Below, piece by piece: positions 5,318-41,374 of a DNA stretch of 64,000 bases. Each line of letters opens with the position of its first letter. Position 1 is the stretch's first letter. Position numbers and translations under genes: made by a program. Source of the stretch: Microtetraspora sp. NBRC 16547 (lineage in GTDB: Bacteria > Actinomycetota > Actinomycetes > Streptosporangiales > Streptosporangiaceae); NCBI RefSeq assembly GCF_030268965.1, contig NZ_BSSE01000002.1:496001-560000 (forward strand), read 5' to 3'. Below the pieces are notes generated by a model that saw only the letters and a program-made list of their open reading frames with translations, did not search any database and had not been told where the DNA came from.

Positions 5318-5333
5318 GTGACACCCTCCTCCG

Positions 5334-6722: not shown

Positions 6723-6784
6723 TACCGAATTCACGCTACGGACGTTACAGATCACCACATCGTGTCCGTAATCGGCCATTGGAC

Positions 6785-10500: not shown

Positions 10501-10602
10501 CCGATCACCCGCCGTCCCGACTGCCCGGCCCTCCGCCCGGCCCTCTCCCCGGCCCGCTGTCCGGTCACGTCACCGGCTGCCCCACCCACCGCGGGGATGA
10601 GA

Positions 10603-14731: not shown

Positions 14732-14966
14732 GCGCCGCACAGTAGCCAGCCCCGCCGACAAAACCGCGTCCTCGCGTCCCGTCCACCCGTAACCGCAGGT
14801 CAGCCTGTGTTCCACACGTACGCGCCGATCGGGGCCGAGGGTCCGGGATACGAGGGACGACCCTGGACGGACGACGCCCTCGCCCGCCCGACGCATGGGA
14901 TACCCGGCCTGTGTGGAAGATCCCGAGTACAGCGGCTATGTCCGAGCCGCGTGGCATACTCACGGC

Positions 14967-17888: not shown

Positions 17889-17982
17889 CACGCGAATGAT
17901 CCGGCGCGCGACCCGCGAGCGACGAGCGATCCGCGAGAGATCCGCGAGCGATCTGTCATCCGTACACATTGGCGCTTCACCC

Positions 17983-18010
17983 TGTCGCACCCGCTTGTAA
18001 GAATGCGACA
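17983..18010. promoter_or_regulatory. Inverted repeat before the aldehyde dehydrogenase gene
   Basis: tgtcgca (17983-17989) and tgcgaca (18004-18010) form perfect 7-bp arms with a 14-bp spacer. The arm centres are 21 bp apart, two helical turns. This fits a dimeric regulator 25 bp ahead of the start codon. Just upstream (17899-17950) lie short repeats of gcgagcga/gatccgcgag. The binder is unknown; the LAL regulator is one candidate. Confidence 0.45.
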
Positions 18011-18034
18011 GTAACCCGAACGAGGAGGTCAACG

Positions 18035-19540: not shown

Positions 19541-19571
19541 CCTTCTTCAGCAGTCCGGCGGCGCCACCGCG

Positions 19572-22523
19572 TCACACGGTGCCGTCGGGGCCGCGGCGGC
19601 CGTCGTAGCCGAGCAGCCGCATGGCGACCTCGGGATCCATGGCCGCCGCGAGCAGCTGGGCCCGTTCGGCCGCCCGGTCCCTGGCCTCCTCCGCCTGCCT
19701 GCGGCCCGCCTGCTGGGCGCGCACCACCGCGACGGCGGCCACGATCAGGCCGATCACGCCGAGAAGCACGAGGAACAGGATCAGCGCGGTTCCCGGCGCG
19801 ACGTTCGTGGATCCCTCCTCCATCGCCCCGGACGCGTCGCCCTGCAGGAAGGCCATCCCGAGCAGGGCGATGACGACGAGCGCGATGATCCCGCCGATGA
19901 GCGCCCACAGCATCCCGTGCGACCGGCCGCGCGGGACGCTCGCCGGCGGAGCGGCCTGGTCCGGGTGGACGGCGGGCCCGGAACCGTTCCACGGCACAAC
20001 GTCCGGCCGGATGACGCCGATGTCGTGCCCGCCGGACGTCCCGTACGACGTGGGCGGCGCCTGCTCCGGAGAACCCGGTCGCGCGGCGGCGACGACGGCC
20101 GACGGTTGAAGCTCCAGCACCCGCGCGGGCACCGGCAGGTCGACGGGGACGGCGCTGTGGCCGCGGTGGGCGTCCGCCGCGGCCGCGTGGTAGGCCTCGA
20201 TCTCCTCGAAGAACTCGTCGGAGCCGTAGATGGTGCCGCCGACGAGCGGCCCGCGGGTCCGCTCGATGACCGCGACGACGTCGTCGCCGTTCAGCGTCTT
20301 GTGGTGCTCCAGAGCGTGCGCGACGCTCAACACCTCCCGCCGGTTGTTCCTGAGCAGCTCGGCGGTCTTCTCCAGCAGCTGGTTCAGGTTGAACTCGATC
20401 CGCTCCGGGAGCATGTCGGGCGCCAGATCGTCACCCGCCGGCCGGGGGGTGCCGGTGAATCCGATGCCGCCGCCCTGGCCCGGCGGTTTCTGGGCCCGTC
20501 CCTCGCGGACGCCGAGGTCCTGCAGGGCGGCTAGCGACGCGACGCCGATGCCCATGCCCCAGTGCGCCTCCATCAGCCCGGTCAGCAGCGTGGCCGACTG
20601 GAGGTCGCCGGAGACGCCCGAGGAGTTGTCCTCGCCGAAGAACATCCGCTCACCCGCCAGCGAGGCGAGGGAGACCATGATGTCCGCCTCGTACTCCGAC
20701 TTCCACCGGGTGAACTGGTCCTCCGGCTTGATGCTGGAGACCATGCCGAGGTAGTCGGCGCCCTTCTCGATGGTCGCGAGGTCGATCTCGAGGTGGTGCC
20801 GGGTGCGGTAGGCGACGACGGCGTGGCACGCCTCGTGCACGGCCACCGCGTGCCGCTCCCGTTCGATGTACTCGACGTCCTCCGGAGGGCCGAGCTGCTT
20901 CAGCCGCTTGGCCCGCATCACGTCGGACCAGGTGATCACGTCCCGGCCGTCCCTGATCGCGGTGATCAGCGACTCGTTGACGAGGTCCTTGATGGTCGCG
21001 CCGGTGGCGTACGGAGTGATCGTGGCCAGCTTGTCGACCTGCTCGTCGGTCAGCTCGTGCCGCACCTTGCCGAAATATCCCTGGTAGGTGCGGATCCGGC
21101 CGTCCTTGGACGGGTAGCCGACCTTGTAGATGCGGTCGATCCGCCCTGGACGCAGCAGCGCCTCGTCCAGCGCCTCCGGCAGGTTGGTCGCCATCATGAT
21201 CAGGATGCGGTACTTCGGCGGCGGCTTGGGCCGCATACCGAGCAGCCGCCGCACATAGCGGTTGACGAATCCACGCGGCTTCTTCAGCCCGGACATCTCG
21301 GTGAGCAGCGCCTGCAGGGTCCCCATGCCGCCCCCGCCGCCCATGCCCGCGCCGTAGACCAGGCGGTTGACGAACGCGGCGGTCCTGGAGACGGGCGCGG
21401 CCGCGGGCTCGGCCCGCCCGTGCCCGAGCGCGCTCCGGCCGAGCAGCCACCGGGTCTCCTGGTCGAGGTAGGAGAAGCCGTTACAACCGGCGTGCTGGAA
21501 GGGCGCGGGCGACCGGTGCGGGGCGGCCCGGCCCAATCCGCCCGGCCCGCCCGAGGCCAGCGCGCCGCGGTTGCCGAGGGAGTCGGCCTCGTCGAAGAAG
21601 ACGATGACCCCGCCGTAGCGGAGCGCCAGCTTGCGGAGCTTCCGGAACAGCGACTTGACCTTCAGCACGCCGACGCCGAAGAACATGTTGATGAACGCGC
21701 CGGGATCCACGAACACGTACGGCTTGCCGGTCGAGCCGGCGACCGCCTCGGCCATGAGGGTCTTGCCGGTGCCGGGAGGGCCCCACAGCAGGATGCCGCT
21801 CGGCACGTAGCCGCCCTTGGCCTCGATCTCGTCCGGCCGTTCGAGGAAGACGATGTTCTCCTTGACCCGCTCGACCACGTGGTCCTGGCCCCACACGTCG
21901 GAGAACCGCGTCTTGATGTCGTCGGGGAAGTAGACGTCCACGCCGCCGCGCGAGAGGAACCAGAAGATCGCGGCGAACTGGCCGACGGCCAGCAGCATGT
22001 AGAGGAGGACTTGCAGGACCGTCGGGAGGTATCCGATCGCCTGGGCCGGGGCCTGGATCAGCGCCTCGATCGGCGAGGTGTTCCCCAGCTTGCCCAGCAC
22101 GACGGCGACGACGGCGATCCAGACCGCCCATTTCAGCGCCCGGGCCAGCCGGTAGCGGCTCCAGTCGCTGAACCGGCGGCGGGTCCAGCGGTTCCACCCG
22201 CCGAAGATCCTCTTGGTCCAGAACCGGTGGTACGCCGCGGACCGCTCGCTGACCAGGAAGTGGAGCTGCCTGACCAGTTCGAGGCCGGCCAGCCAAAGGA
22301 TCCAGGTCGAGTCACGGGCGGTGACGGCGATCGCGTCCGGGACCGTGATGATCCCACGGAAGGCCCCGAAGGTGTTCAGGACGAGGACGCCGAACAGGAT
22401 CGCCAGCAACAGCAGGAACTTCACCCGGTCCCAGAAAGGGAGCCGTTTCCTGGTCAGCCGGTCGCGGTCCACGGGTCCCGAGCCGGGTTCGCGCAGCCCC
22501 TCGGGCTGATGTGCCGGGTTCAT
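19572..22523 (-). CDS. FtsH-like membrane AAA+ zinc metalloprotease with a large insertion
   Basis: The 983-aa protein has N-terminal hydrophobic segments (about 36-53, 131-143, 166-190). An AAA domain follows with Walker A GPPGTGKT (248-255), Walker B FFDEA (309-313), sensor ATN (445-447) and the arginine region RPGRIDR. The M41-type peptidase has HEACH (563-567), and its third ligand is likely Asp640 in GVSGDL. Between Walker B and sensor 1 there are about 120 residues, including a Gly-rich run, where FtsH has about 50. Two further hydrophobic segments lie near the C-terminus, unlike standard FtsH. It probably degrades or extracts membrane proteins. The lipoprotein gene just upstream (13-base gap) is likely its partner. 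This is probably a second, specialised FtsH rather than the housekeeping one. Confidence 0.88.
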   Translation of the reverse strand: MNPAHQPEGLREPGSGPVDRDRLTRKRLPFWDRVKFLLLLAILFGVLVLNTFGAFRGIITVPDAIAVTARDSTWILWLAGLELVRQLHFLVSERSAAYHRFWTKRIFGGWNRWTRRRFSDWSRYRLARALKWAVWIAVVAVVLGKLGNTSPIEALIQAPAQAIGYLPTVLQVLLYMLLAVGQFAAIFWFLSRGGVDVYFPDDIKTRFSDVWGQDHVVERVKENIVFLERPDEIEAKGGYVPSGILLWGPPGTGKTLMAEAVAGSTGKPYVFVDPGAFINMFFGVGVLKVKSLFRKLRKLALRYGGVIVFFDEADSLGNRGALASGGPGGLGRAAPHRSPAPFQHAGCNGFSYLDQETRWLLGRSALGHGRAEPAAAPVSRTAAFVNRLVYGAGMGGGGGMGTLQALLTEMSGLKKPRGFVNRYVRRLLGMRPKPPPKYRILIMMATNLPEALDEALLRPGRIDRIYKVGYPSKDGRIRTYQGYFGKVRHELTDEQVDKLATITPYATGATIKDLVNESLITAIRDGRDVITWSDVMRAKRLKQLGPPEDVEYIERERHAVAVHEACHAVVAYRTRHHLEIDLATIEKGADYLGMVSSIKPEDQFTRWKSEYEADIMVSLASLAGERMFFGEDNSSGVSGDLQSATLLTGLMEAHWGMGIGVASLAALQDLGVREGRAQKPPGQGGGIGFTGTPRPAGDDLAPDMLPERIEFNLNQLLEKTAELLRNNRREVLSVAHALEHHKTLNGDDVVAVIERTRGPLVGGTIYGSDEFFEEIEAYHAAAADAHRGHSAVPVDLPVPARVLELQPSAVVAAARPGSPEQAPPTSYGTSGGHDIGVIRPDVVPWNGSGPAVHPDQAAPPASVPRGRSHGMLWALIGGIIALVVIALLGMAFLQGDASGAMEEGSTNVAPGTALILFLVLLGVIGLIVAAVAVVRAQQAGRRQAEEARDRAAERAQLLAAAMDPEVAMRLLGYDGRRGPDGTV

Positions 22524-24858: not shown

Positions 24859-27171
24859 TCAGCCGCGCAGCCGCGCCGGTATCCGGTAGACGGCATAGTC
24901 GCCGGAGCGGAACCGCAGGTTCGCGGCGTCCCCGATCGGCGGCGACCGGCGCTCCTCGACGACGAGCCAGCGCACCCCGAAGCGGTCGCGCAGGTACTGG
25001 AAGGCCGCCGCCGACGGCCGGCGGAAGGCCGCGTCGTTCAGCCGGATCCGCTCGGGGTCCCAGAACGGAAGGCGCAGCACCGACTCTCCCGGGCGCCAGC
25101 GGTCCATGTTCGTCGGCGTGTACGCCCATCCCTCGACGAGGGCGCGGCGCTCGGACAGCGCGGTCACCCAGAAGTGGCGGCTGTCGCAGGGGTCCTCGCG
25201 GCCCCAGACGCAGTGCGCGTTGGTGGCGACGAGGTCGTCCGGCCGCGAGTGGGCGCGCAGCCACCGCCCGGCGGCGAGCGCGCCGCGCGGCACCTTCTCC
25301 AGGTCGGGGTGGACGACGCGGCTCGCGGCCGGGTCGGCCCGCCCGGTGTCCCCCAGCGCGAGAGCGCGCGCCTGCCACGACGCCGGAGCGCCCATGGCCA
25401 CGACCATGGACAGCGCGAGGGACCAGGCGCGCACCTTGCGCCGCCTCAGCGCGATCGCGGCCACGGCCGCGAGGACGGCGACGGCGAGCAGGACGGCGAA
25501 CGGCAGGTAGAGCGCGGCCTGATCCCGGTCCGGACCCAGCGGGACGACGACACCGCACAGCACGCGGATCAGGTGCGCGGCCGCCAGCCCGAGGGCGACG
25601 GCGCCCACGAGCGCCCGGCGTGACGGCCGCTCCCCCTTCGTCACGACCACGAACCCGTACGCCGAGAGGATCGCCAGGTACGGATAGACCGACTGGAGGA
25701 AGTACCCCTCGTCCACGGAGGTGTTACCCAGCATGAGGACGGCGCCGACACCCGCCGCGGACATGCCGAGCAGGAGGACGACGGGTTGCCGGGCGAGCAG
25801 CCGGGGCCGGCTCAGCAGCCCGGCGGTCCCGCACCACGTGACGGCCCAGCACACCAGGTAGACGGCGGTCATCCCGGCGAGCGAGGCCGGTGACGGCTTC
25901 GCGGCGTCGCCCAGCCCGGCCAGCAGCACCCACGTCGTGCGGACGAAGGACTGAGGAGACACGATCAACCCCTGCCGGGTGCCGCCGTACAGGACGAACT
26001 GGGCGAAGGCCAGGCACACGGCGGTCATGCCGAGCGCGGCCAGCACGGCCCAGGGCGGGCGGCGGTCCCGGATCGCCCGTACCGCTCCGGCCGCGACCAG
26101 CCCGGCCATGAGCAGCGGCAGGTGGGGGGCCTCAGCCCCCATGACGGCGACCAGCAGGACGGCCAGCAGCACCCACGCGCCGCGGCCGGAGCGCCCCTCC
26201 AGAAGGTCGGCGAGCACGAGGACGACGGCGGCGACCAGCAGAGCCCCGAACATCTGCGACGGGCTGCCCCATCCGTTCGGCTGGAGGCCGCTCCACTGGA
26301 GCAGTCCGTCGGTGTTGGCGTACAGGCTCGGCATGGACACGAGGAGCGTCCCGGCGACGGCCAGCGCCGCCGCGACCCGCGATCCGGTGACGCGGTGCCC
26401 GATCATCCCGGTGAGCACGGCGAACCCGGCCAGCATCGGCAGGACCGCGAGGCGGTAGAGCAGCACCATCGGCTCGACGCCCGTGACCCAGCTCGCCGAC
26501 GCGAGGTGGGCGTAGACGAACCAGTGGTAGAGCAGGGGCTCGCCGGCGACCATGGGCACCTCCGGCGGCATGTGGTGCCTCAGCTCGCCGATGAGGGCCA
26601 GGTGGTACGGCATGTCGAAGAGGGAGGCCCCGGCCTGGGGCCAGGTCAGCGCGTTGGCGTCGAAGAAGCTCGTGGCGCTCCAGGCGGTCAGGTACACGAC
26701 GACCAGCGCGAGGAACCAGGACCACCAGCGTGGCGCGGCGGCCCCCCGCGGCACGCGCGTCCAGTGCCGGCGCAGCCGGGGCACGGCCAGGAAGGCGAGG
26801 TAGACGGCGGCCGGCCACGCGAGGACGAGCAGCGGGGCGCCGGCCGCGCGGGCGGCGATGTAGGCGGGCACCTCGATCGCGTATCCGAGCGTCACGCCGA
26901 GGGCGAGCTCCTCCCCCGGCGTGCGCCCCGCACCCTGCACCGCCCCGTACAGGACCCGGATCAACAGGACGCCGGGGAGCGCGAGGCCGAGCGCGAGATA
27001 GAGCCCGAAGGCGGCCAGATCGCGGACGGACACGCCATGGAGCCGTAGCACGACGGCCGCGAACAGGAGGGCGAGCGCCCCGGGCGCCCACCGGGCAAGG
27101 CGGGATCTCCGATGCCGTCCGGCGTGCCTTCCCCCGCCGATGAACACGCCCGCCGCCATGGTCCTGACCAT
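24859..27171 (-). CDS. Large polytopic membrane protein, GT-C-like, paralogue 1 of 3
   Basis: This 770-aa protein has about 13 hydrophobic segments, then a soluble C-terminal domain of about 150 residues. A loop with FDMPYHLALIGEL and AGEPLLYHWFVYAHL resembles the acidic/His loop of GT-C lipid-linked-sugar transferases. The C-terminal domain has the block ATNAHCVWG, a second Cys in DPCDSRHFW, and GVRWLVVEERR. Two further paralogues (36586-38934 and 38995-41337) share all these blocks. The two Cys could form an external disulfide. A polyprenol-sugar transferase or polymerase in surface polysaccharide synthesis is my inference; I know no characterised homologue. The start is unsure (27171 or a Met nearby). 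Confidence 0.75.
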   Translation of the reverse strand: MVRTMAAGVFIGGGRHAGRHRRSRLARWAPGALALLFAAVVLRLHGVSVRDLAAFGLYLALGLALPGVLLIRVLYGAVQGAGRTPGEELALGVTLGYAIEVPAYIAARAAGAPLLVLAWPAAVYLAFLAVPRLRRHWTRVPRGAAAPRWWSWFLALVVVYLTAWSATSFFDANALTWPQAGASLFDMPYHLALIGELRHHMPPEVPMVAGEPLLYHWFVYAHLASASWVTGVEPMVLLYRLAVLPMLAGFAVLTGMIGHRVTGSRVAAALAVAGTLLVSMPSLYANTDGLLQWSGLQPNGWGSPSQMFGALLVAAVVLVLADLLEGRSGRGAWVLLAVLLVAVMGAEAPHLPLLMAGLVAAGAVRAIRDRRPPWAVLAALGMTAVCLAFAQFVLYGGTRQGLIVSPQSFVRTTWVLLAGLGDAAKPSPASLAGMTAVYLVCWAVTWCGTAGLLSRPRLLARQPVVLLLGMSAAGVGAVLMLGNTSVDEGYFLQSVYPYLAILSAYGFVVVTKGERPSRRALVGAVALGLAAAHLIRVLCGVVVPLGPDRDQAALYLPFAVLLAVAVLAAVAAIALRRRKVRAWSLALSMVVAMGAPASWQARALALGDTGRADPAASRVVHPDLEKVPRGALAAGRWLRAHSRPDDLVATNAHCVWGREDPCDSRHFWVTALSERRALVEGWAYTPTNMDRWRPGESVLRLPFWDPERIRLNDAAFRRPSAAAFQYLRDRFGVRWLVVEERRSPPIGDAANLRFRSGDYAVYRIPARLRG

Positions 27172-27292: not shown

Positions 27293-28552
27293 TCAGAGGC
27301 GCTCGACGTTGCAGCCCCGGCAGCGGTCGCGGGTGTCGAAGACGAACGCGCTGGCGCGCTGGACGAGGTCGTAGTCGAAGCAATCGTGGTCGGTCAGGAG
27401 CACGACCGCGTCCGCCCGGGCCAGCTCGTGGTAGGACACGTCGGCGATCTCGATCCCGGCCGGGAACTGGACGAGATCGACGTGCGGGTCGGCGGCCCGC
27501 ACCTCCGCGCCCAGCTTGATCAGAGCCCGGGCCACCTCGATCGCGGGAGACTCCCTGCAGTCGCCCGCGTTCTTCTTGTACGCGAGGCCGAGCAGCAGCA
27601 CACGGCTTCCCTTGACCGACTTGAACCGCTGGTTCAGCGCGAGGGTCAGCCGGTGGACCACGTGCTCCGGCATGTGGTCGTTGATGTCGTTGGCCAGTTC
27701 GACGAACCGGAAGTTGCGCCCGAGGCTGCGCTTGACCTTCCAGGACAGGTACGAGGGGTCGATCGGCAGGCAGTGCCCGCCGACACCCGGCCCCGGTGTG
27801 AAGCGCATGTAGCCGAAGGGCTTGGTCGAGGCGGCGTCGACCGCCTCCCAGACGTCGATCCCGAGCTGCTGCGCGAAGATCGACAACTCGTTCACCAGAG
27901 CGATGTTGACGTGCCGGAACGTGTTCTCCAGAAGCTTGCACAGCTCGGCCACCTGGAGCGACGACACCGGGACGACCTGCTCCACGATGGCTCCGTAGAA
28001 GGCCCGGATCCGGGCGAGGGACGCGTCGTCGAGGCCGGACACGACCTTCGGGGTGTTCTCCAGGCGCCACCGCGCGTTGCCCGGGTCGATCCGCTCCGGG
28101 CTGTAACCGAGGAAGAAATCCTCCGGTGCCCGCAGCCCCGACCCCTCCTCCAGGATCGGACGCAGGTACTCCTCCGTGGTCCCCGGGTAGGTGGTCGACT
28201 CCAGGACCACCGTGGCGCCGTGCCGTACGAACGGGGCGATGGAACGGCCGGCCGAGGCGATGTGGCTGAGGTCGGGCGCGCCCTCACGCAAGGGTGTCGG
28301 CACCGTGATCACGCAGACGTCGAACCCCTCGGCTCCCGCGTAGTCCGTGGCCGCGCGGTACCGGCCGGACCGCAGCGCCGTGGCCAGCGCGTCGTCGGGG
28401 ATGTCCTCGACATAACTCTCGGCGGCGTTGAGGCGCTTCACCCGCCATTCGTCCACGTCGATCCCCACCACGTCGAACCCGGCCTCGACCGCCCGCATCG
28501 CGAGCGGCAGGCCGACGTATCCCTGGCCGATCACGACCAGCTTCTCTCCCAT
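27293..28552 (-). CDS. Nucleotide-sugar dehydrogenase (UDP-ManNAc/UDP-GlcNAc/UDP-Glc 6-dehydrogenase family)
   Basis: At 419 aa it has the NAD-binding start VVIGQGYVGLPLA, the substrate/catalytic block VPTPLREG, TTYPGTT and YSPERIDPGN, and the catalytic Cys in GPGVGGHCLPIDP. The C-terminal domain has LLGLAYKKNAGDCRESP. These enzymes oxidise the C6 hydroxyl of a UDP-sugar to a uronic acid with two NAD+. The PERIDPGN and NFRFVELANDIND blocks lean toward the UDP-HexNAc (WbpA/WecC) branch rather than UDP-glucose. It probably supplies a uronic acid for the polysaccharide locus; the AsnB-like gene could amidate that carboxylate. It is divergent from the Rieske/MBL gene. Confidence 0.9.
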   Translation of the reverse strand: MGEKLVVIGQGYVGLPLAMRAVEAGFDVVGIDVDEWRVKRLNAAESYVEDIPDDALATALRSGRYRAATDYAGAEGFDVCVITVPTPLREGAPDLSHIASAGRSIAPFVRHGATVVLESTTYPGTTEEYLRPILEEGSGLRAPEDFFLGYSPERIDPGNARWRLENTPKVVSGLDDASLARIRAFYGAIVEQVVPVSSLQVAELCKLLENTFRHVNIALVNELSIFAQQLGIDVWEAVDAASTKPFGYMRFTPGPGVGGHCLPIDPSYLSWKVKRSLGRNFRFVELANDINDHMPEHVVHRLTLALNQRFKSVKGSRVLLLGLAYKKNAGDCRESPAIEVARALIKLGAEVRAADPHVDLVQFPAGIEIADVSYHELARADAVVLLTDHDCFDYDLVQRASAFVFDTRDRCRGCNVERL

Positions 28553-29008
28553 TTCTTGACCTCCATCATTTCCAGATGAGATGTCCCGACTCTAGAAGTC
28601 ACGAGATCCCGAACCCCCGATTCGAAGGAGGATTCGGCGTGTCGCCTTCCAGCTCCGGCAACGGTACGGCCAATCGACGTAATATCTCCCCGCTGACACA
28701 TTGGATCGACTTCGCATTCGGGCAAAAGGACCGATCCGCAAAAGCGGAAAATATCCTTCTCGCGCACCGTCTCGGCCCTGTTCGTCGAAGCACTGGTCAA
28801 CCCCGCGCTCCGGTCCACGCCGGGGCGACTTTCGTCGACATCAAGCCCGCCGGCCGCCACCAAGGAAAACAGATTCCATAATCGCCAAAAAATCTTGATC
28901 TACGAGTACCGACGCTTTCTGTTTTCAACAGATGTCGGCGGCAAACTGCAATTCTGCAGCACGACGGGCCGCCGACTCGGACAAATCTCTGTCACGAGAG
29001 GACTCTTC
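28553..29008. other. AT-rich divergent intergenic region, 456 bp
   Basis: It separates the nucleotide-sugar dehydrogenase (minus) from the MBL/Rieske gene (plus). The GC content is visibly low for this genome (runs such as cgccaaaaaatcttg near 28883). Short open frames on both strands lack coding character. The long frame extending the Rieske gene upstream to 28895 belongs here and I do not accept it. Confidence 0.5.
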
Positions 29009-30502
29009 TTGAACCTGCACCGCGACGGACGTCAGACCGCTTTGCGCTATCTCGGGCACGCGGGTTTCATCGCCGAACATCAGGGTGTACGGCTGCTCAT
29101 CGACCCCTGGTTCTATCCGGCATTCCTGCACTCATGGTTCCCTCATCCCGACAATCGGGATCTGCTGGACACCGTGCGCGGCCAGGATTTCGACTTCCTC
29201 TACATCTCGCACGCCCATGAGGACCATTACGACGAGCGTGTCCTCCGCACACTGGACAGAGCGATCACCGTGATCGTCCCCAAGTACCGCTCGAAGGTCA
29301 TGGTGAAGCGCTTCTCCGCGCTGGGGTACGAGAACATCGTGGCGCTCGACCACAAGGAAACGTTCGAGGTCGCCCCGGGCTTCGCCGTGACGATGTACCT
29401 GGACACGAGCCACAAGGAGGACAGCGGGCTGCTGCTCGACCTCGACGGCTTCCGATTCCTCGACCTCAACGACTGCAACACTCCGATGTCGGAGCTGCCC
29501 GGCGACGTGGACCTGCTTTCCGCGCAGTACTCAGGGGCCATGTGGTACCCCAACTGCTATGACTTTCCGCCTGACGTGATGAGCAAGAAGGTCGACATCG
29601 TACGCGGAGACCACCTCGACACGCTTTACCGCAAACTGCGGATCACCGGAGCCGCGGCCTACCTGCCTTCCGCAGGCCCTGCTTGCTTCCTGGACCCCGT
29701 GCTGGAGCCGTACAACGACCGCGACGCGACGATCTTCCCGCACTGGGAGGACGTCGCCGAGGAGTTCGCCGAGGCCTGCCCCGACGTCGAGGTGCTGCGG
29801 CTCTTCCCCGGCGACACCGTACGGCTCGGGGACACCCGGGTCGTGGAGCGTCATCCCGGCGCACGGACCTCCGAGGACCTCGCCGCCTACCGGGAGCGGC
29901 GCCGCGACGAGTGGAGCGCGTTCTACGACGAGCCCGCCGATCCGGTGACCGCCGAGGAGATCGAGGCGTACTTCGCCAAGCTGCAGAGCTGGAACAAGCG
30001 CTTCCTCGGCGACTTTTCCAAGGACATCCGTCTCATCGCCGACGGCCGCATGTGGGACGTACGGCTGGGCCGCCTGGCCGAGCGGTTCGTCATCGAGGGC
30101 GAGGAGCCCTATGACCCCGAGTACACCCTGCTGCTCTGCCCCAGGACCATGAGGGCGATCATCGAGGAACGAGTCGGCTGGGAAGAGGCTCTGCTGTCGA
30201 TGCGCGTGGGGCTGCACCGGGAGCCGGACGTCTTCGACCTCACTTTCATGAGCCTGTTGCGGTACGGCAACCAGCCGGCGCAGACCATGCAGATGCTCAG
30301 GGAACGGCAGAACACCGAGACCATCGAGCGGGACGGCCTGCGAATGCAGCGGTTCTGCCCGCATGCCGGCGAGGACCTCGCGTACGCCACCATCTGCGAG
30401 GGCGTCATCGAATGCCCACGGCACCACTGGAAGTGGGAGGCCGCGACCGGCAAATGCGTCGCCGGTGGCACCCTGCCACTACGGGTGCAGCCGCTCGACT
30501 GA
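29009..30502 (+). CDS. CMP-sialate-hydroxylase-like protein: metallo-beta-lactamase fold plus C-terminal Rieske domain
   Basis: The N-terminal two thirds is a UlaG-like metallo-beta-lactamase fold: LGHAGF, IDPWFYP, the metal motif HAHEDH (68-73), and LDLNDCNTP. The last 50 residues form a Rieske [2Fe-2S] site, CPH at 450-452 and CPRH at 469-472. This pairing, and blocks such as YISHAHEDH and the LNDCNTP region, resemble CMP-Neu5Ac hydroxylase (CMAH). Vertebrate CMAH has the Rieske domain first, so the order here is reversed. No sialic-acid genes are visible in the window. I infer a monooxygenase acting on a nucleotide-activated or lipid-linked sugar (for example an N-acyl group) of the locus. 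The start is a TTG with GAGAGGA seven bases upstream; 497 aa. Confidence 0.8.
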   Translation: MNLHRDGRQTALRYLGHAGFIAEHQGVRLLIDPWFYPAFLHSWFPHPDNRDLLDTVRGQDFDFLYISHAHEDHYDERVLRTLDRAITVIVPKYRSKVMVKRFSALGYENIVALDHKETFEVAPGFAVTMYLDTSHKEDSGLLLDLDGFRFLDLNDCNTPMSELPGDVDLLSAQYSGAMWYPNCYDFPPDVMSKKVDIVRGDHLDTLYRKLRITGAAAYLPSAGPACFLDPVLEPYNDRDATIFPHWEDVAEEFAEACPDVEVLRLFPGDTVRLGDTRVVERHPGARTSEDLAAYRERRRDEWSAFYDEPADPVTAEEIEAYFAKLQSWNKRFLGDFSKDIRLIADGRMWDVRLGRLAERFVIEGEEPYDPEYTLLLCPRTMRAIIEERVGWEEALLSMRVGLHREPDVFDLTFMSLLRYGNQPAQTMQMLRERQNTETIERDGLRMQRFCPHAGEDLAYATICEGVIECPRHHWKWEAATGKCVAGGTLPLRVQPLD

Positions 30503-30856: not shown

Positions 30857-31834
30857 TCAGGAAGATGTGGCTCTGAGCCCGCGCCACCAGTCCTGGTTGT
30901 CGCGATACCACCGAACAACGTCGGCGAGTCCCTCATCGAAGTCGACCATGGGCTCGTAACCGATCGAGCGGATCTTGGTGGAGTCGACCGAGTAGCGCAG
31001 ATCGTGCCCGAGCCGGTCCGGCACGTGCGCGACCATCTCCCACCCGACGCCGAAGGCCGCGAGCAGCCGCTCGGTGAGTTCGAGGTTGGTCAGCTCGACC
31101 CCGCCCCCGATGTTGTAGACCTCACCGGCCGAGCCCTTGTCCACAACGAGCTGGATGCCCCGGCAGTGGTCGTCCACGTGCAGCCACTCCCGCACGTTGC
31201 GGCCGTCGCCGTACAGCGGGACGGGCATCCCATCGATCAGGTTGGTGACGAACAGCGGGATGACCTTTTCCGGGTACTGGTAGGGGCCGTAGTTGTTGGA
31301 GCACCGGGTCACCCGCACGTCCAGCCCGTACGTCCGGTGGTAGGCACGGCAGAGCAGGTCGGCGCCGGCCTTGGCGGCCGAGTAGGGCGAGTTGGGCAGC
31401 AGCGGCTCCGCCTCGGTCCACGATCCCGCCTCGATCGACCCGTAGACCTCGTCGGTGGAGACCTGGACGAACGCGCGGACGCCGGCCTCCAGTGCGGCCT
31501 GCAGGAGCCGCTGGGTGCCCTGGACGTTGGTCGACACGAAGTCGCCGGCACCCGTGATCGAACGGTCGACATGCGTCTCCGCCGCGAAGTTCACGATCAG
31601 GTCGTGCCCGGGGACCAGCTCGCGAAGCAGCGCCATGTCGGTGATGTCGCCGCGTACGAAGCTGAACCCGCGTGTCGCCGCGACCGGGGCCAGGTTGGCG
31701 GAGTTCCCCGCGTATGTGAGCTTGTCCAGCACGGTCACGCGGGCGTTCTCATAGCCGGGGTACGCCCCGGACAGCAGCGACCGGACGTAGTGGGAGCCGA
31801 TGAACCCGGCGCCACCGGGAACCAGAATCTTCAT
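30857..31834 (-). CDS. rfbB: dTDP-glucose 4,6-dehydratase
   Basis: The 325-aa protein has the full RmlB pattern: PGGAGFIGSHYVR, LDKLTYAGN, NFAAETHVDRSI, the catalytic TDEVYG (Thr-Asp-Glu), the YSAAKAGAD Tyr/Lys pair, and NNYGPYQYPEK. It converts dTDP-glucose to dTDP-4-keto-6-deoxyglucose, the branch intermediate for many deoxy sugars. Its ATG overlaps the stop of rfbA (ATGA), so the two steps are coupled. The next enzyme here is the ketoisomerase part of the 33369-34307 fusion, not a rhamnose epimerase. No rmlC or rmlD is visible in the window, arguing for an amino sugar rather than rhamnose. Confidence 0.96.
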   Translation of the reverse strand: MKILVPGGAGFIGSHYVRSLLSGAYPGYENARVTVLDKLTYAGNSANLAPVAATRGFSFVRGDITDMALLRELVPGHDLIVNFAAETHVDRSITGAGDFVSTNVQGTQRLLQAALEAGVRAFVQVSTDEVYGSIEAGSWTEAEPLLPNSPYSAAKAGADLLCRAYHRTYGLDVRVTRCSNNYGPYQYPEKVIPLFVTNLIDGMPVPLYGDGRNVREWLHVDDHCRGIQLVVDKGSAGEVYNIGGGVELTNLELTERLLAAFGVGWEMVAHVPDRLGHDLRYSVDSTKIRSIGYEPMVDFDEGLADVVRWYRDNQDWWRGLRATSS

Positions 31835-32898
31835 GCGCGCACCTGAACCCTGCTGTGGTCTCCGACCATGAGCTGATAAGTGTTGGGCACCCCGGTCGCC
31901 CGGGTGACCTCGGCGTTGCGCCCGATCAGGGAGTGCGTGAGACCGGAGACGCCCCTGATGGCCGAATCACCGAGCACGATGCTGTAGTCCACCTCGGCGT
32001 CCTCGAGCACGCAGCCCTCTCCGATCGAGGTGTACGGTCCGATGTACGAGCGACTGATCTTGGCATCGGCGCCGATCACGGCCGGTCCCCGGATGACCGA
32101 GCCCTCCACGACGGCACCGGGGGCGATGACGACGCGCCCGGTTATCTCCGAGAAGCCGTCCACGGTCCCCCCGACGTCGGGCTCGATCGCCTCCAGCACG
32201 ATGCGGTTGCACTCCAACATGTCCTGCAGCCGTCCGGTGTCCTTCCAGTAGCCCGTGACGAAGTGAGACTGGACGCGGTGGCCGGTGTCGATGAGCCACT
32301 CGATCGCATCGGTGATCTCCAGCTCGCCCCGGGCGGACGGCCTGATCGCGCGCACGGCCTCATGGATCGCGGGCGAGAACGTATAGACCCCGACGATCGC
32401 CATATCGCTGCGCGGGTGCTCCGGCTTCTCCTCCAGCGCGACGATCTCGCCGTCCGGACCGAGCTCGGCGACGCCGTAGAACTGGGGCTCGGCCACGCGG
32501 GTGAGCAGGATGCGCGCGTCGCAGTCGGCCGCGCGGAAGGCGTCGACCATGCCGGCGATGCCGTCGACGAGGAAGTTGTCGCCCAGGTACATCACGAACG
32601 GATCGTCGGCCAGAAACTCCTTGGCGATGAGGACGCAGTGTGCCAGCCCGAGCGGCGCCTCCTGCTCGATGTAGGTGACGTCGAGCCCGAACGCGGAGCC
32701 GTCCCCGACGGCCTCCCGGACCTCCCGTCCGGTTTCGCCGAGGATGATCCCCACGCTGGTGATGCCGGCGTCCCTGATGGCCTCGAGCCCGTAAAAGAGC
32801 ACCGGCTTGTTCGCGACGGGGACCAGTTGTTTCGCCGACGTGTGGGTCAGCGGGCGCAGCCTCGTCCCCTTGCCGCCCGCCAGAACGAGTGCCTTCAC
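31831..32898 (-). CDS. rfbA: Glucose-1-phosphate thymidylyltransferase, long (StrD-like) type
   Basis: At 355 aa it begins MKALVLAGGKGTRLRPLT, the sugar-nucleotidyltransferase signature, followed by KQLVPVANKPVLFYGLE, GETGREV and LGDNFL. A C-terminal part with hexapeptide-like repeats marks the long RmlA/StrD subfamily. It makes dTDP-glucose from glucose-1-phosphate and dTTP. The GTG at 32898, with GGAAGGA about 11 bases upstream, is the likely start. The ATG ten codons further up has no proper spacing. It is coupled to rfbB by ATGA and lies downstream of the GtrA gene. Confidence 0.94.
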   Translation of the reverse strand: MKALVLAGGKGTRLRPLTHTSAKQLVPVANKPVLFYGLEAIRDAGITSVGIILGETGREVREAVGDGSAFGLDVTYIEQEAPLGLAHCVLIAKEFLADDPFVMYLGDNFLVDGIAGMVDAFRAADCDARILLTRVAEPQFYGVAELGPDGEIVALEEKPEHPRSDMAIVGVYTFSPAIHEAVRAIRPSARGELEITDAIEWLIDTGHRVQSHFVTGYWKDTGRLQDMLECNRIVLEAIEPDVGGTVDGFSEITGRVVIAPGAVVEGSVIRGPAVIGADAKISRSYIGPYTSIGEGCVLEDAEVDYSIVLGDSAIRGVSGLTHSLIGRNAEVTRATGVPNTYQLMVGDHSRVQVRA

Positions 32899-32946: not shown

Positions 32947-33372
32947 TTATCCGACCTTGGACATCGCTCGCCCGCTTGAACGTGCGGCTTCGCGACCTCC
33001 GCGGCTTCTGCCGGATGAGGCCAGGACGTACCGGCTCATCACGAACGTGAGCGGGACGGTCACGCACATCGTCATCGGCATCGCCACCCAACTGGCGACT
33101 CCCAGCCGGACCAGCAGCGTCAGAAGAGCCAGACCTACGAAGTACTGGACCAGATAGACACCGGGGAACCGCACAGCGGAACCGATCGACGCCCTGGTAC
33201 GGAACACGAAGGCCGTGTTGATGACGTATGAGAGGGCGATGCCGGAAAGGAAGACCAATGTATAGGCCACCGACACCGGCAGCCACAACGCGACGACCAC
33301 GAAGAGCCCGTACGTGACCCCGGTGTTGACGGCGCCGCCTATGAGAAAGCGGGCGAACGGCGAACCCCTCAC
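32947..33372 (-). CDS. GtrA family membrane protein
   Basis: At 141 aa it has four hydrophobic segments and the GtrA signature: [16 protein letters not shown] at the N-terminus, [11 protein letters not shown] in the middle loop, and FVMSRYVL at the end. GtrA-type proteins are thought to flip polyprenyl-phosphate sugars or to work with DPM-like GT2 enzymes. A DPM-like GT2 lies two genes upstream, so the two probably form a sugar side-group module. The GTG start overlaps the stop of the fused acetyltransferase gene (GTGA). The basic C-terminal tail is cytosolic. Confidence 0.9.
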
Positions 33373-34307
33373 GTGCGCACCACCTCGGAGACGATTTTCT
33401 GGAACTCGTCATATGTGCGGATGTAGTCGTCCGGGTCGTAATAGTGGGAGGCGAACACGAGGAGCACCGCGTCGGGCGAGTACCGGTACTGCGTGCCCCA
33501 GATCATGGCCGGCATGTGGACGCCTTGGCTGGAACGGTCCAAGGTGATCTCACGTCGGTTGCGGCCGTCGTCCAGGAGGACGCCGCAGGAGCCGCGCACG
33601 CAGATCAGAAACTGCTCGCAGTGCCGATGGGCGTGCTCTCCCCGGACTTCCCCGCCGGGCACGTTGGAGACGAGGAAATAGCGCTTGGGCACGAACGGGA
33701 GCTCACGCTCGAACTCTCCGACGGAGAGCTCGCCGCGCGGGTCCTTCATGACGCGCAACTCGTGCAGACTCGCGCCACCGACTCCAAGTCCCACCTTTCC
33801 CGGCGCGATGGAGTCGCCGCTCTGGAGGAGATGGTCCCTGTCGGCGACGTAGCCCTTGACTCGTGCGGGATTGCCCACCACGACCGCGTTCGGGGGAACC
33901 GAACGCGTCACGACCGCGCCCGCCCCCACCATCGCACCGCTGCCGATCTCCACGCCCGGCAGAATCGTGCTGTTCGCACCGATGGAGGCGCCGGAGCGGA
34001 CCACCGTGCGGACGAACCTTTCCGGATTGACCTTGCTGCGCGGGAATGGGTCGTTCGTGAACGTCGCGTTGGGGCCGATGAAAACGTCATCCTCGATCGT
34101 GATCCCGTCCCAGATCTGGACGCCGCACTTGACGGTCACGCGATCGCCCAGCACCACATCGTTCTCGACGAAGACGCCGTCGCAGATGTTGCACTCGGCC
34201 CCGATCCGCGCGCCTGGGAGCACGTGCGCGAAGGCCCAGACGCGGGTGCCCGCTCCGATGTCCGTGCTCTCACAGAGGGCCTGTGGGTGGACGAAGGTCT
34301 GTTTCAT
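33369..34307 (-). CDS. Fused sugar N-acetyltransferase and dTDP-6-deoxyhexose 3,4-ketoisomerase (FdtD/WxcM-like)
   Basis: Two enzymes are joined in one 312-aa chain. Residues 1-170 are a left-handed beta-helix acetyltransferase of hexapeptide repeats ([47 protein letters not shown]). Residues 180-312 are a cupin ketoisomerase of the FdtA/QdtA/WxcM family with the His cluster [10 protein letters not shown] (223-232) and the [13 protein letters not shown] tail. The isomerase acts on dTDP-4-keto-6-deoxyglucose. The acetyltransferase acts on the 3-amino sugar made by the neighbouring aminotransferase. The product is dTDP-Fuc3NAc or dTDP-Qui3NAc; I cannot separate the two by eye. The ATG at 34307 follows AGGAG. 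It overlaps both neighbours (ATGA and GTGA). Confidence 0.92.
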
Positions 34308-35290
34308 GCACTCCTGCCGGTATAGAGAAGTTCGGAGACGGCTTCCGGAGCTCCGTCGAAGGAGCGGACGGTACGCACCAGGGCCAGGGGCCGCTTCTTC
34401 GTGTTCTCGTAGCTCCGCCACGCGTACGACCCGATGAAACCGAGCCCCAGGGTGTTCAGCGCCCCGAAGAAGGTGATGACCACGATCGTGGTCGTGTAGC
34501 CCGCCGCCGCGATCTGGCCGGTAAGTCTCATGACGACGACGAAGACGGCCAGAAGTGCGGCGACGACGCATCCGAGTGCTCCCAGGATCGTGAGGACGCG
34601 GATCGGCAGGTCCGTGAACGCGAATACGCTGTCCAGCAGATAGTTGATCTTCTTGCCGACCGTCCAGGCGCTCCTGCCGTGCGCTCGCGCGCGCCGCTGG
34701 TACGGCACCTCGCTCCGCCGGAAACCGAGCCAGTAGACGAGGCCGACGAGGGAGGTGTTCGCCTCCTCCATCCGCAGGAGCTCGTCCCTGATCCGCCGGT
34801 TGCACCCGAAGACGTCGACCCCGCCGGCCGGGATCTCGCGCACGATGAAACGCCGGTAGAAGCCCCAGAAGAGGTTCGCCGCCAGCCGCGACATCCCTGG
34901 ATCGTCACGCCCCTCCCGCACTCCGACCGCGATGTCGGCATCGCCGTACACGAGCTGGTCGAGAAATCTGAGCAGCAGGTCAGGCGGCTCCTGGAGGTCT
35001 GCGGCGATCGTGGCGAAGTAGTCGCCCTGGGCCGCGCGAAGACCGGTGCGGACGGCCGCGAACGCGCCGAAGTTGCGCGCGTGCAGGAGCAGTTGCGACC
35101 GGAACGGCGCCTGCGGCAGGGCCGTCTTGAGCAACTCGAAGCTGTCGTCCGGACTCCCGTCGACCACGAAGACGAACTCCATCGGCATGCCGTAGCGTTC
35201 AGCGACGATCGCGTTGATGGCGCTGAACTCCGCGATCAGCTGTGGCACGAACTCCGCGTTCCGATAGACGGGCACGATCACAGAGAACAC
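34304..35290 (-). CDS. DPM-like family 2 glycosyltransferase with two C-terminal helices
   Basis: The 328-aa protein has a GT-A domain: [38 protein letters not shown], and the DxD-type AADLQEPP. Two hydrophobic segments follow (about 240-265 and 275-300), as in GtrB/ArnC and bacterial DPM synthases. It probably moves a sugar from a nucleotide donor to undecaprenyl phosphate on the inner face, for the GtrA protein to flip. It overlaps the acetyltransferase/isomerase gene by ATGA. The donor could be the dTDP amino sugar made by this operon; that is inference. Confidence 0.92.
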
Positions 35291-35294
35291 GGCG

Positions 35295-36419
35295 TCACCA
35301 GGTGTTGACGCGGGAGATCACTCGCGTGACCTCCTCGTCGGAGAGCTCGGAATGACACGGCAAGGTCACGATCGAGACCGACAGGTCATCGGTCACCGGG
35401 AGCGCGGCGGCCGGACCGCTGGGATCGGTCAGCGCGGGCTGGCGGTGGTCCGGGACCGGATAGTGCACATCCGTCTGAATCGCCGCCTCGGTGAGATGAG
35501 CGCGGAGCGCCTCCCTCTCAGCACTCACGACGACGTACAGATGAGCGACGTACTCCTCCTCGTGGACCGGAGGGCACTCCACCCGCGGGTTGCGGATCTC
35601 CTGCGAGTACCGCGTGGCGATGTCGCGGCGACGCCGGTTCCAGGCGTCGAGGAAGGGCAGCTTGGCCCGCAGAACCGCGGCCTGCATCTCGTCGAGGCGG
35701 CTGTTCCGCCCTCCTCTGACGCCGGCGTGATACCTCGACTCCCACCCGTACTGCCGCAGGCGTCTGACCTGCTGGGCGACGTCCGCACTGCCGGTCACCA
35801 CGGCGCCGCCGTCACCGAGCGCACCCAGGTTCTTCGTCGGATAGAAACTGAAACTCGCCGCGGCTCCGAAGGAGCCGGCACGCCGGCCGCCCCGGCGAGC
35901 GCCGTGGGCCTGCGCGCAGTCCTCGAACACGGGAACGCCGGCCGGGGCCGTGAGATCCAGGACCCCCTCCATGTCGTGCAGGAGCCCGAAGAGATGAGTG
36001 ACCACGACCGCGTCGAGTGTGCTCTCCGCGAGGATCTGCTTGAGGTGGGCGAGGTTCATCAGCTTCGTGTCACGGTCCACGTCGACGAAGACCGGTTCCG
36101 CGCCGAGCGCCATCAGGGCCGTCGTCGTGTAGAAGCCCGCGTTCGCGACCGTGGCCACGCGGCTTCCCCGGCCCACGCCGAGGGCGCGGAGCCCGAGCTC
36201 GATGGCCTCCGTTCCGTTGGCGACGCCGACGCAGTGGCCGACGCCGCAGTACTCGGCGAACTCCTGCTCGAAGGCTTCGACCTCCGCGCCCAGGACGTAC
36301 CAGCCGCTGCTCAGGACGCGCTCGACAGAAGTGCGCACGACCGTCTCCGTCGTGACCGCATGCCGGCGGAGGTCGTTCACCAGAATCGGGTCAGCCACAT
36401 CTGCCCTCGTGTTCTGCAT
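35295..36419 (-). CDS. DegT/DnrJ/EryC1 sugar aminotransferase (FdtB/QdtB-like)
   Basis: The 374-aa PLP enzyme has ANGTEAIELGLRALG, the cofactor Asp in VFEDCAQAHGA, the Schiff-base Lys196 in FYPTKNLGALGD, and YGWESRYH. With RfbA, RfbB and the fused isomerase/acetyltransferase beside it, it most likely places the 3-amino group on a dTDP-3-keto-6-deoxyhexose, giving Fuc3N or Qui3N. Only four bases separate it from the GT2 gene, so it heads the rfb-type operon. A 17-bp AGCAC-N7-GTGCT palindrome lies upstream at 36538-36554. Confidence 0.93.
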   Translation of the reverse strand: MQNTRADVADPILVNDLRRHAVTTETVVRTSVERVLSSGWYVLGAEVEAFEQEFAEYCGVGHCVGVANGTEAIELGLRALGVGRGSRVATVANAGFYTTTALMALGAEPVFVDVDRDTKLMNLAHLKQILAESTLDAVVVTHLFGLLHDMEGVLDLTAPAGVPVFEDCAQAHGARRGGRRAGSFGAAASFSFYPTKNLGALGDGGAVVTGSADVAQQVRRLRQYGWESRYHAGVRGGRNSRLDEMQAAVLRAKLPFLDAWNRRRRDIATRYSQEIRNPRVECPPVHEEEYVAHLYVVVSAEREALRAHLTEAAIQTDVHYPVPDHRQPALTDPSGPAAALPVTDDLSVSIVTLPCHSELSDEEVTRVISRVNTW

Positions 36420-36585: not shown

Positions 36586-38934
36586 TCAATGATCCGACCG
36601 AGAACTCGCACCGTCCCGCACCCGATAAACGACATAATCGCCGGTACGGAATCGAAGATCCGCGAATTTTCCGATTCCCGGTTCCGCCCCGGTGAGCCGT
36701 TCGTCGACGAAAAGCCAGCGCACTCCGTAGCGTTCACGCAAGGCCCCGATCGACGTCGCGGAAGGGGCCGAGAAGGCCGCCTCGTTCGCCGCGAATCTCC
36801 GCTCATCCCAGAACGGGAGATGGGTTACCGACTCCCCCGGCCGCCAGCGGTCCTGGCTCGTCGACGAGAAGGCCCACCCCTCGACCAGCACCCGCCGTTC
36901 GGACAATGCGGCCACCCAGAAGTGGCGGCTGTCGCAGGGAACCTCCCGCCCCCAGAGGCAATGCGCGTTCGTGGCGACGAGTTCGTCGGGATCCGAGTGT
37001 GCGCGCAACCACCGTCCGGCCGTCATGGCACCGGGCGGGACCACCTGAGCCTGCTCCGCCGCACCCGGTCCGCGCCCAGGCAGGTGGCTGAGGACGAACG
37101 CGTGCGCGTCGGCGAGCAGACCGATGCTCGCGGACATGACGATGAGGACGGCCGCCGCGCGAAGACGTCCCAAAGCCGCGATCGCAACGACCGCCACCAC
37201 GACGGCGATGACCAGCAGCACGACGTAGGGCCGGATCAGGGCGGCATCCGATTGGCCCGGGCGGAGCGGAACCCGGACTCCGCACAGGAGGGGGATCAGG
37301 TAGGCGGCGACCAGGCCTGCGCAGACGGCGGCGATCGTCGCCCGGCGGGAGAGGCCCGCACGCCGTACGACGGCGAAGATTCCGCAGACCGCCACGATCA
37401 CCAGATAGGGGTAGGCCCCCCAGAGGAAGAAGAGCTGGCTACGGGCGGGATGCCCCAGCAGCAGCGCCGTACCGAAACCCACCGCGCCGATGCCCAGCAT
37501 GAGGACCAGCGGGGGCCTGAGGAGCGATCGGGGGCGGCTCAGCAGCCCCAATATCCCCGACCAAGTGATCAGCAAGCCCAGCAGGCACACCATGGTCAGG
37601 GCGAGCAGCGAACCCGGCGGCGGCACCGCCAGTTCTCCCAGTCCGGTGAGTTCCCCCCAGGATGTCTGTACGAAGTACAAGGGCGCGACGATCACAGCCT
37701 CCCGAACACCGCCGAAGAGGACGAGTTGGGCATACAGGAAGCACCCCGTGGTGATCGCCAGCGCCGTGACGGTGGGCCTGGACGGCCGGCGCCGCCTGAC
37801 GATCTCCACCGCGGCCACCGCCAGCAGGCCCACCGCGAGCATCGGCACAAAGATCGCCTTGGCGCCCATGACCGCGAGGAGGAGGACACCCGTCAGAAGC
37901 GACTGGCGAAGGGCGTGCGCACGATGACGATAGGTGTCGATCAGCAGAAGCACGACCCCGGCGAACAGGAGGGCACCGAAGGTCTGGGTGGGGCTCGTCC
38001 ACGCGAGGTCGGGGATGCCTCCCCAGGTGAACGACCCGTTACTGCCGAGGTACAGGCTCGGTATCGCGACGAAGATCGAACCCACGACGGCGAGCGATGC
38101 CCCTCCCCACAAGCCGATGACGCGTCTCGCGGTCATCCCGATCAGGACGACGAGGGCCGCGAGCATGGGCAGCATGGCCAGACGGATCAGCAGCACCAAC
38201 GGCTCCAGGCCGGTGATCCAGCTCGCCGCGGCGAGGTGCGCGTAGACGAACCAGTGATAGAGCAGCGGCTCGCCGGCGACCATCGGAAGGGTGGGCGGCA
38301 TGTGGTGCTTCAGCTCGCCGATCAGGGCGAGATGGAAGGGGACGTCGTTCACGAACGTCCCCAGCCCCGGCCAGGTCAACGCATTCGGCCTGAAGTAGGT
38401 GGCCGCGCCCCAGGCCACCAGATAGCCGAAGGCGAGGGCGAGCGACCAGGAGTACCAGACAGGGGGCGTGCTGCGGCGGCACCCACCCCTCCAATGTCCG
38501 CGCAGCTTGGGGATGCCCAGGAAGAGGACATAGGTGGTGATCGGCCAGATCACTACGAGCAGCGGCATCCCGACAGCACGCGCACCGATGTAGCAGAACA
38601 CCTCCACCGCGTAACCGCACGTCAGGCCGAGGGCGATCTCCTCCGCCGCCGTACGGTCGCCGGCGTGCAGCGCCCGGACCCACAGCACCCCCGGCAAGGC
38701 GATCCCGAAGCCGACATAGGCGGCGAAGATGGCGACATCTCCGACGGAAACCCCGAAGAAGAGCACGGTTGCCACCGCGAAAGCCACCGCGAACGCCGCC
38801 GGCAGCAATCTCGCCGACTTCCCTGCCGTCGCGAGTCGCCGCCGATCAGTCTGGGCATTTTCCAGCGTCGCCTCGGCGACCCGCGAATGGGGCGGAGATT
38901 CGACCATGTGGCAAAGCCTGACGTCGGAAGACAC
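36586..38934 (-). CDS. Large polytopic membrane protein, GT-C-like, paralogue 2 of 3
   Basis: The 782-aa protein has the same plan as the genes at 24859 and 38995: about 13 hydrophobic segments, the loop PFHLALIGELKHHMPP then AGEPLLYHWFVYAHL, and a soluble C-terminal domain with ATNAHCLWG, PCDSRHFWV and GVRWLFVDERL. Two Cys in the C-terminal domain are shared by all three. A start further in (MVESPPHSRVA) is possible. It lies next to paralogue 3 in tandem, so gene duplication is likely. A lipid-linked sugar transfer or polymerisation role is inferred from the GT-C-like plan and the locus. Confidence 0.75.
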   Translation of the reverse strand: MSSDVRLCHMVESPPHSRVAEATLENAQTDRRRLATAGKSARLLPAAFAVAFAVATVLFFGVSVGDVAIFAAYVGFGIALPGVLWVRALHAGDRTAAEEIALGLTCGYAVEVFCYIGARAVGMPLLVVIWPITTYVLFLGIPKLRGHWRGGCRRSTPPVWYSWSLALAFGYLVAWGAATYFRPNALTWPGLGTFVNDVPFHLALIGELKHHMPPTLPMVAGEPLLYHWFVYAHLAAASWITGLEPLVLLIRLAMLPMLAALVVLIGMTARRVIGLWGGASLAVVGSIFVAIPSLYLGSNGSFTWGGIPDLAWTSPTQTFGALLFAGVVLLLIDTYRHRAHALRQSLLTGVLLLAVMGAKAIFVPMLAVGLLAVAAVEIVRRRRPSRPTVTALAITTGCFLYAQLVLFGGVREAVIVAPLYFVQTSWGELTGLGELAVPPPGSLLALTMVCLLGLLITWSGILGLLSRPRSLLRPPLVLMLGIGAVGFGTALLLGHPARSQLFFLWGAYPYLVIVAVCGIFAVVRRAGLSRRATIAAVCAGLVAAYLIPLLCGVRVPLRPGQSDAALIRPYVVLLVIAVVVAVVAIAALGRLRAAAVLIVMSASIGLLADAHAFVLSHLPGRGPGAAEQAQVVPPGAMTAGRWLRAHSDPDELVATNAHCLWGREVPCDSRHFWVAALSERRVLVEGWAFSSTSQDRWRPGESVTHLPFWDERRFAANEAAFSAPSATSIGALRERYGVRWLFVDERLTGAEPGIGKFADLRFRTGDYVVYRVRDGASSRSDH

Positions 38935-41292: not shown

Positions 41293-41374
41293 GAGGGCGA
41301 TCCTGACGAAGCGAAGGCCGGCCACCGGCCCCAACACACCCCGCCCGTGGTTTCCTTGCCGGCCTTTGTGATTG

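Follow-up and report, generated by a model that had tools for sequence, protein, structure and literature searches.

A predicted MBL–Rieske hydroxylase beside dTDP-sugar genes in Microtetraspora belongs to a clade separate from NamH

The gene at 29009–30502 of the window, by which we mean the whole 64,000-nucleotide stretch of Microtetraspora sp. NBRC 16547 DNA that was analysed, encodes a homolog of NamH with an N-terminal MBL fold and a C-terminal Rieske domain. It falls in a clade of its own, and it lies beside genes for an activated amino sugar. On balance we lean towards a NamH-type iron monooxygenase, which would act as an optional hydroxylase and supply a surface polysaccharide with the N-glycolyl form of an acetamido nucleotide sugar (probably a 3-acetamido sugar).

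The gene and its two domains

The open frame is intact, begins with TTG and encodes 497 amino acids. Pfam identified Lactamase_B_3 at residues 12–128 (E 6.5e-9), Lactamase_B_2 at residues 28–157 (E 2.6e-6) and a Rieske domain at residues 446–485 (E 3e-6). NCBIfam gave no useful name. An earlier note on this DNA had read from the letters a HAHEDH motif and a Rieske center of C450, H452, C469 and H472, with the Rieske domain last in the chain, and all of this is exact. The motif occupies residues 68–73. The four Rieske residues are invariant in all 14 sequences of an alignment of the window protein with 13 relatives (A1, from which the incomplete match at locus L061 was excluded) and in all 56 rows of the wider family. 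H68, H70, D72 and H73 of the HxHxDH motif, together with D138 and D155, are also invariant in the 56 rows, where 33 residues in total do not vary. The 13 relatives are 59–87% identical to the window protein and come from four phyla (Actinomycetota, Pseudomonadota, Myxococcota and Planctomycetota). Comparison of the gene with its counterpart in Planotetraspora (L048) gave a dN of 0.073 and a dS of 0.62. The gene is thus real and conserved, and it is under purifying selection.

Table 1. Features in and around the MBL–Rieske gene, in window coordinates
Feature	Coordinates	Strand	Basis or detail
Nucleotide-sugar 6-dehydrogenase, divergent upstream neighbor	27293..28552	-	TIGR03026 E 2.5e-122
Shine-Dalgarno-like GAGAGGA	28996..29002	+	6 nt before the TTG start of 29009-30502
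MBL-Rieske hydroxylase (predicted; clade A of the NamH-like family)	29009..30502	+	497 aa
MBL (UlaG/CmlA-type) domain, residues 12-157	29042..29479	+	Pfam; HxHxDH at residues 68-73
Rieske [2Fe-2S] domain, residues 446-485	30344..30463	+	Pfam; expected ligands C450, H452, C469, H472
RmlB, dTDP-glucose 4,6-dehydratase	30857..31834	-	TIGR01181 417 bits, cut-off 365
RmlA, glucose-1-phosphate thymidylyltransferase (long form)	31831..32898	-	TIGR01208 447 bits, cut-off 320
GtrA-family membrane protein	32947..33372	-	PF04138
Hexapeptide acetyltransferase + FdtA ketoisomerase fusion (FdtD-like)	33369..34307	-	Pfam Hexapep; FdtA 2.6e-52
Family 2 glycosyltransferase	34304..35281	-	PF00535
DegT aminotransferase, QdtB-like (C3 amination inferred)	35295..36398	-	PF01041

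The earlier note had considered that the MBL part might align better with a UlaG-like lactonase. By sequence it does not. The best PDB match of the MBL part is FrsH (E 1.8e-11), followed by CmlA (2.5e-8). Both are diiron monooxygenases with the MBL fold, and they are the closest solved structures to this part of the protein by sequence. Rieske oxygenases rank after them, and the first MBL hydrolase appears only at 0.003. The fold comparison is more equivocal. The AlphaFold2 model, built from the 14 sequences, has a mean pLDDT of 77 and a pTM of 0.79. Ranked by E-value, the best 50 of 576 Foldseek matches to it are headed by FrsH (1.2e-10), with RNase J, NAPE-PLD and 2wym, which we take to be E. 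coli UlaG, behind it. By query-normalised TM-score, which is low throughout these 50 matches, the hydrolase NAPE-PLD (0.40) stands slightly above FrsH (0.35). The fold scores obtained with this model do not by themselves separate an oxygenase from a hydrolase. The PDB and Foldseek matches listed include no solved MBL–Rieske protein.

Hydrolases of the UlaG type share Lactamase_B_3 and the HxHxDH motif with the window protein, but they match it more weakly than the diiron oxygenases do, and presumably they carry no fused Rieske domain. On this sequence match, a UlaG-type lactonase is not favored. CmlA and FrsH also differ from the window protein. They are, we assume, without a Rieske domain, and their MBL fold falls in the C-terminal half of the protein, a layout that the window protein does not have: the matched part of FrsH covers residues 254–405 of 531, whereas the query covers positions 3–149.

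Relation to NamH, CMAH and the wider family

The earlier note had taken the domain order to be reversed relative to CMAH and had proposed a new use of the fold. PMC8227644 does place the Rieske domain of CMAH first, where the window protein has it last. The claim of novelty is not supported. NamH (Rv3818, MSMEG_6410), as described in PMC10050696, carries a UlaG domain at its N terminus and a Rieske domain at its C terminus, and it makes N-glycolyl muramic acid through hydroxylation of the N-acetyl group in muramic acid. The order that looks reversed against CMAH is the order of NamH and hence not new. NamH is the closest characterized relative that we found, CMAH having been compared through the description of its domain order only. 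A profile of A1 aligned end to end with an eight-protein profile of the NamH set (hhalign probability 100, E 3e-65, columns 14–498), and A1 against six proteins of a second clade (clade B) gave an E-value of 6.1e-71. The HxHxDH motif and the Rieske residues are common to the window protein and the NamH set.

A family tree of 56 rows (midpoint root; duplicate loci and L061 left out) resolved the window protein and its 13 relatives as clade A with support of 100/100. Clade B, with the same support, has eight rows, all from the family to which the window genome belongs, and includes a second copy from that genome (L002). The other 34 rows include four (L019, L020, L024 and L028) that we infer, together with L081 and L082 of the NamH set, to be mycobacterial-type. 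Identity to the window protein is 29–33% in clade B and 24–28% in the 34-row set (25–26% for the mycobacterial-type rows). Six residues (D132, H135, K136, E137, N157 and H473), located near the ligand motifs, are conserved without exception in clade A and lacking in the other clades. The MBL–Rieske proteins L081 and L082 match the Pfam family SCP2_Rv3818 (PF25451), which in NamH lies between the MBL and Rieske parts, with E-values of 7e-47 and 8.7e-48, whereas the window protein has no Pfam match to this family at E≤1. The genes for L081 and L082 lie near serS, with a prephenate dehydratase gene also close to L081. We take this neighborhood to be that of Rv3818. Clade A genes, in contrast, are mostly found near polysaccharide sugar genes.

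Gordonia rhizosphera provides the best evidence for setting clade A apart from NamH, as it has a clade A copy beside a NamH-type one (74% identity to L081, E 7e-260). Taken with the separate position of clade A in the midpoint-rooted tree, this led us to reject NamH orthology. We also weighed whether the window gene could encode a second muramic acid hydroxylase, with the function of NamH and no relation to the sugar locus. It has the NamH architecture and is homologous to NamH over its full length, and its genome has no close NamH, the other copy there being 31% identical to L081. We consider this very improbable, as clade A is a separate clade, is linked to polysaccharide genes and is present in Gram-negatives, and Gordonia keeps its NamH-type copy alongside the clade A one.

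The clade B copy in the window genome (L002/L080, G000:C12:76477-78021) is 4–5 kb from genes that, judged by their first residues, look like rmlA and rmlB. The copy at L085 (G400) sits among genes whose first residues resemble those of the left flank of the window (4268–22523), at a point approximately 14 kb away from the place of the clade A gene in the window. In G332, the copy (L086) is 26 bp from a nucleotide-sugar dehydrogenase gene that NCBIfam assigns to one subfamily with that at 27293–28552.

CMAH shares with the window protein a Rieske and a beta-lactamase-like domain and would share the N-acetyl to N-glycolyl chemistry proposed here. The earlier note had described the sugar locus as free of neuA and neuB. 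This holds for the window, as whole-genome searches found no NeuB (PF03102) or cytidylyltransferase (PF02348) match in this stretch of contig C2. It does not extend to the genome, which has one fused cytidylyltransferase–phosphatase–NeuB gene on contig C22 (L113, 8391–10421, 676 aa), along with weak matches to NeuB on C3 (1.9e-6) and to PF02348 on C4 (5e-5). Among the 15 carrier genomes, nine have a NeuB-family match and six have none. Strong matches occur in eight of the nine actinomycete carriers, and Gordonia is not among these eight. A CMAH-like hydroxylase acting on a CMP-nonulosonate made through the fused gene is thus possible in the window genome, but it cannot hold for all carriers, because six of them are without a NeuB match. 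The fused gene is also on a different contig from the hydroxylase. Its product scores 267 of the 400 bits required for N-acetylneuraminate synthase, and its middle part is KDN-phosphatase-like, so that the compound made may be one without an N-acetyl group. We regard this explanation as highly unlikely. Judged by the description of CMAH, we reject membership of the window protein in that group on domain order and context.

Sugar genes around the carriers

The genes to the right of the window gene are on the opposite strand and begin with rmlB and rmlA (Table 1). The FdtD-like protein matches 4mzu, which we take to be Shewanella FdtD, with an E-value of 1.5e-121 over residues 6–305. The best PDB matches of the DegT aminotransferase are 7b0d (2.4e-88), QdtB (1.4e-79) and WbpE (1.6e-61). 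By these similarities, RmlA, RmlB and the FdtD-like and QdtB-like proteins seem to form a full pathway for making a dTDP-3-acetamido-3,6-dideoxyhexose. The product would be Fuc3NAc or Qui3NAc, between which these genes do not distinguish. Three large genes on the minus strand (24859–27171, 36586–38808 and 38995–41337; 740–780 aa) belong to one family, for which neither Pfam nor NCBIfam gave a match at E≤0.001. Locus L112 of Sphaerisporangium has two further relatives, at roughly 50% identity.

Clade A is sparsely distributed. At E≤1e-20 it was found in three of 198 relatives of the window genome (the genome itself, G357 and G374) and in none of three congeners. In a survey of the phylum, 25 of 296 genomes had a match; outside the window genome, the remaining 24 are at 28–38% identity.

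The 14 other carriers (L048–L061; the genome of L061 was counted although its copy is incomplete) were searched for partner genes with thresholds of E≤1e-60 for a GalE-like SDR, 1e-40 for a Gfo/Idh oxidoreductase and 1e-15 for relatives of the hexapeptide acetyltransferase of the window. The SDR is present in all 14, and the oxidoreductase and the acetyltransferase are each present in 13; since the carriers fall into groups of relatives, the counts are not independent of one another. Ten of the 14 have all three genes on the contig of the hydroxylase gene and within 25 kb of it. In G488, G493 and G494 they are on contigs other than that of the hydroxylase. Rhizobium subbaraonis (G490) has only the SDR, with no acetyltransferase or Gfo/Idh match at the thresholds used. 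At E≤1e-60 and 1e-40, respectively, the SDR and the Gfo/Idh oxidoreductase of the other carriers are both missing from the window genome.

Some loci depart from this arrangement. In G493 and G488, a cluster of acetyltransferase, Gfo/Idh, DegT and SDR genes (L107 and L106, respectively) is off the hydroxylase contig, and the contigs of G488 are short. Such a cluster and the hydroxylase may work in trans. None of the sugar-gene clusters recognised by locus clustering stands beside the clade A gene at L057 or L061, and in L061 (Rhizobium rhizolycopersici) only residues 237–489 of the clade A match align.

The window and most of the other loci share two genes, one for a QdtB/WbpE-type aminotransferase and one for a hexapeptide acetyltransferase, and this shared pair points to a 3-acetamido group as the target. 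The best PDB matches of the aminotransferase at L052 are 7b0d, 2oga, QdtB and WbpE, the last three of which we take to be C3 aminotransferases. A second DegT protein of the other loci matches, at looser thresholds, TlmJ, ArnB and perosamine synthase, presumably C4 aminotransferases; at strict thresholds, neither the second aminotransferase of L052 nor its Gfo/Idh protein has a PDB match. The Gfo/Idh copy at L054 has general family matches only. For the acetyltransferases of the carriers, the best scores are to NeuD, PglB and VioB, all below the cut-off. The Gfo/Idh proteins reach 155 of the 450 bits set for UDP-GlcNAc 3-dehydrogenase, and they and the SDR fall below every equivalog cut-off. 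Because of these scores, the C3 specificity suggested by the aminotransferases is not firm.

A first alternative concerns the position that would be oxidized. A nucleotide-sugar oxygenase could instead hydroxylate a ring or C6 C–H bond, or oxidize a free amine at nitrogen. As set out in PMC7794379, CmlA and FrsH hydroxylate the β-carbon of an amino acid bound to a carrier, and the six clade-specific residues near the ligand motifs would allow a different reaction. However, NamH, the nearest characterized full-length relative, acts on an N-acetyl group according to PMC10050696. An acetyltransferase also accompanies the gene in 10 of the 14 other carriers. We therefore rate oxidation at another site as improbable.

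A second alternative concerns the sugar. The dehydrogenase at 27293–28552 directly adjoins the window gene, and the dehydrogenase next to the clade B copy in G332 is of its subfamily. The substrate could thus be a UDP-HexNAc or an uronic acid derived from it (UDP-GlcNAc or UDP-ManNAc-A), with the divergent dehydrogenase as the partner. UDP-HexNAc is available in all bacteria, which would account for partners that vary from locus to locus. However, in the locus clustering the window and L054 are the only loci that have this dehydrogenase, whereas the set of SDR, Gfo/Idh and acetyltransferase recurs in more carriers. We consider a UDP-HexNAc substrate unlikely, if somewhat less so than oxidation at another site.

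The SDR is not a specific marker of the hydroxylase. It is found in 20 of the 198 relatives, two of them carriers; the other 18 are among the 195 relatives that have no clade A gene. In the family of G490, 21 of 151 genomes have it, two of which are known carriers (hydroxylase status covers these two). The sugar genes are near-constant among carriers, and most relatives with the SDR are without the hydroxylase. Such a distribution fits a tailoring enzyme that is optional to a fairly common sugar locus. In Sphaerisporangium, the same FdtD locus (L112) has no hydroxylase in the 19.9 kb covered, and the hydroxylase is kept in another locus. The link to dTDP-Fuc3NAc is therefore not fixed, and the idea of a tight link to the FdtD locus is weakened. 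A 2-oxoacid oxidoreductase is encoded beside the gene in four Streptosporangiaceae loci; we set it aside as the electron source, as it does not recur in the other clustered loci.

Proposed reaction and significance

Of the readings considered, we prefer hydroxylation of an acetamido nucleotide sugar by a NamH-type enzyme. In the proposed reaction, the C-terminal Rieske [2Fe-2S] cluster would take up electrons from a ferredoxin or reductase of the host and relay them to a diiron site of the N-terminal MBL fold, where, with activation of O2, the methyl carbon of the N-acetyl group on a nucleotide-activated amino sugar would be hydroxylated. The N-glycolyl sugar would then be incorporated into a surface polysaccharide. 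In the host of the window, the substrate is likely to be a 3-acetamido-3-deoxy nucleotide sugar, dTDP-Fuc3NAc or dTDP-Qui3NAc. In other carriers, it would be the product of the Gfo/Idh, DegT and acetyltransferase route. We hold this explanation less firmly on account of the cytidylyltransferase part of the fused gene on C22 and the Foldseek TM-scores. The suggestion of the earlier note that an N-acetyl group of a non-sialic nucleotide sugar is hydroxylated thus survives as the best reading; in view of NamH, the novelty of such a use is not supported.

The domain order and the chemistry are known in kind from NamH; the clade A branch and its probable substrate look new. Since clade A stands apart from NamH, and in Gordonia occurs alongside a NamH-type copy, a new substrate is possible. 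Neu5Gc of animals and MurNGlyc of mycobacteria are the main N-glycolyl sugars known. In the literature searched, mostly open-access, no listed paper described such an enzyme or N-glycolyl sugars of polysaccharides. A further-reaching but less probable reading is that clade A is an undescribed family of NamH-like oxygenases acting on polysaccharide nucleotide sugars (here dTDP-Fuc3NAc or dTDP-Qui3NAc), whose 3-acetamido group they would N-glycolylate. It would have a patchy and probably horizontal spread, and it would place N-glycolyl amino sugars other than the muramic and sialic acids in the surface glycans of at least four bacterial phyla. If this is correct, clade A would yield a tool enzyme for the synthesis of N-glycolyl amino sugars and a model of how Rieske and MBL domains cooperate. 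It would also be a third separate branch of N-acetyl hydroxylases, located near polysaccharide genes, and would thereby predict where more of them might be sought.
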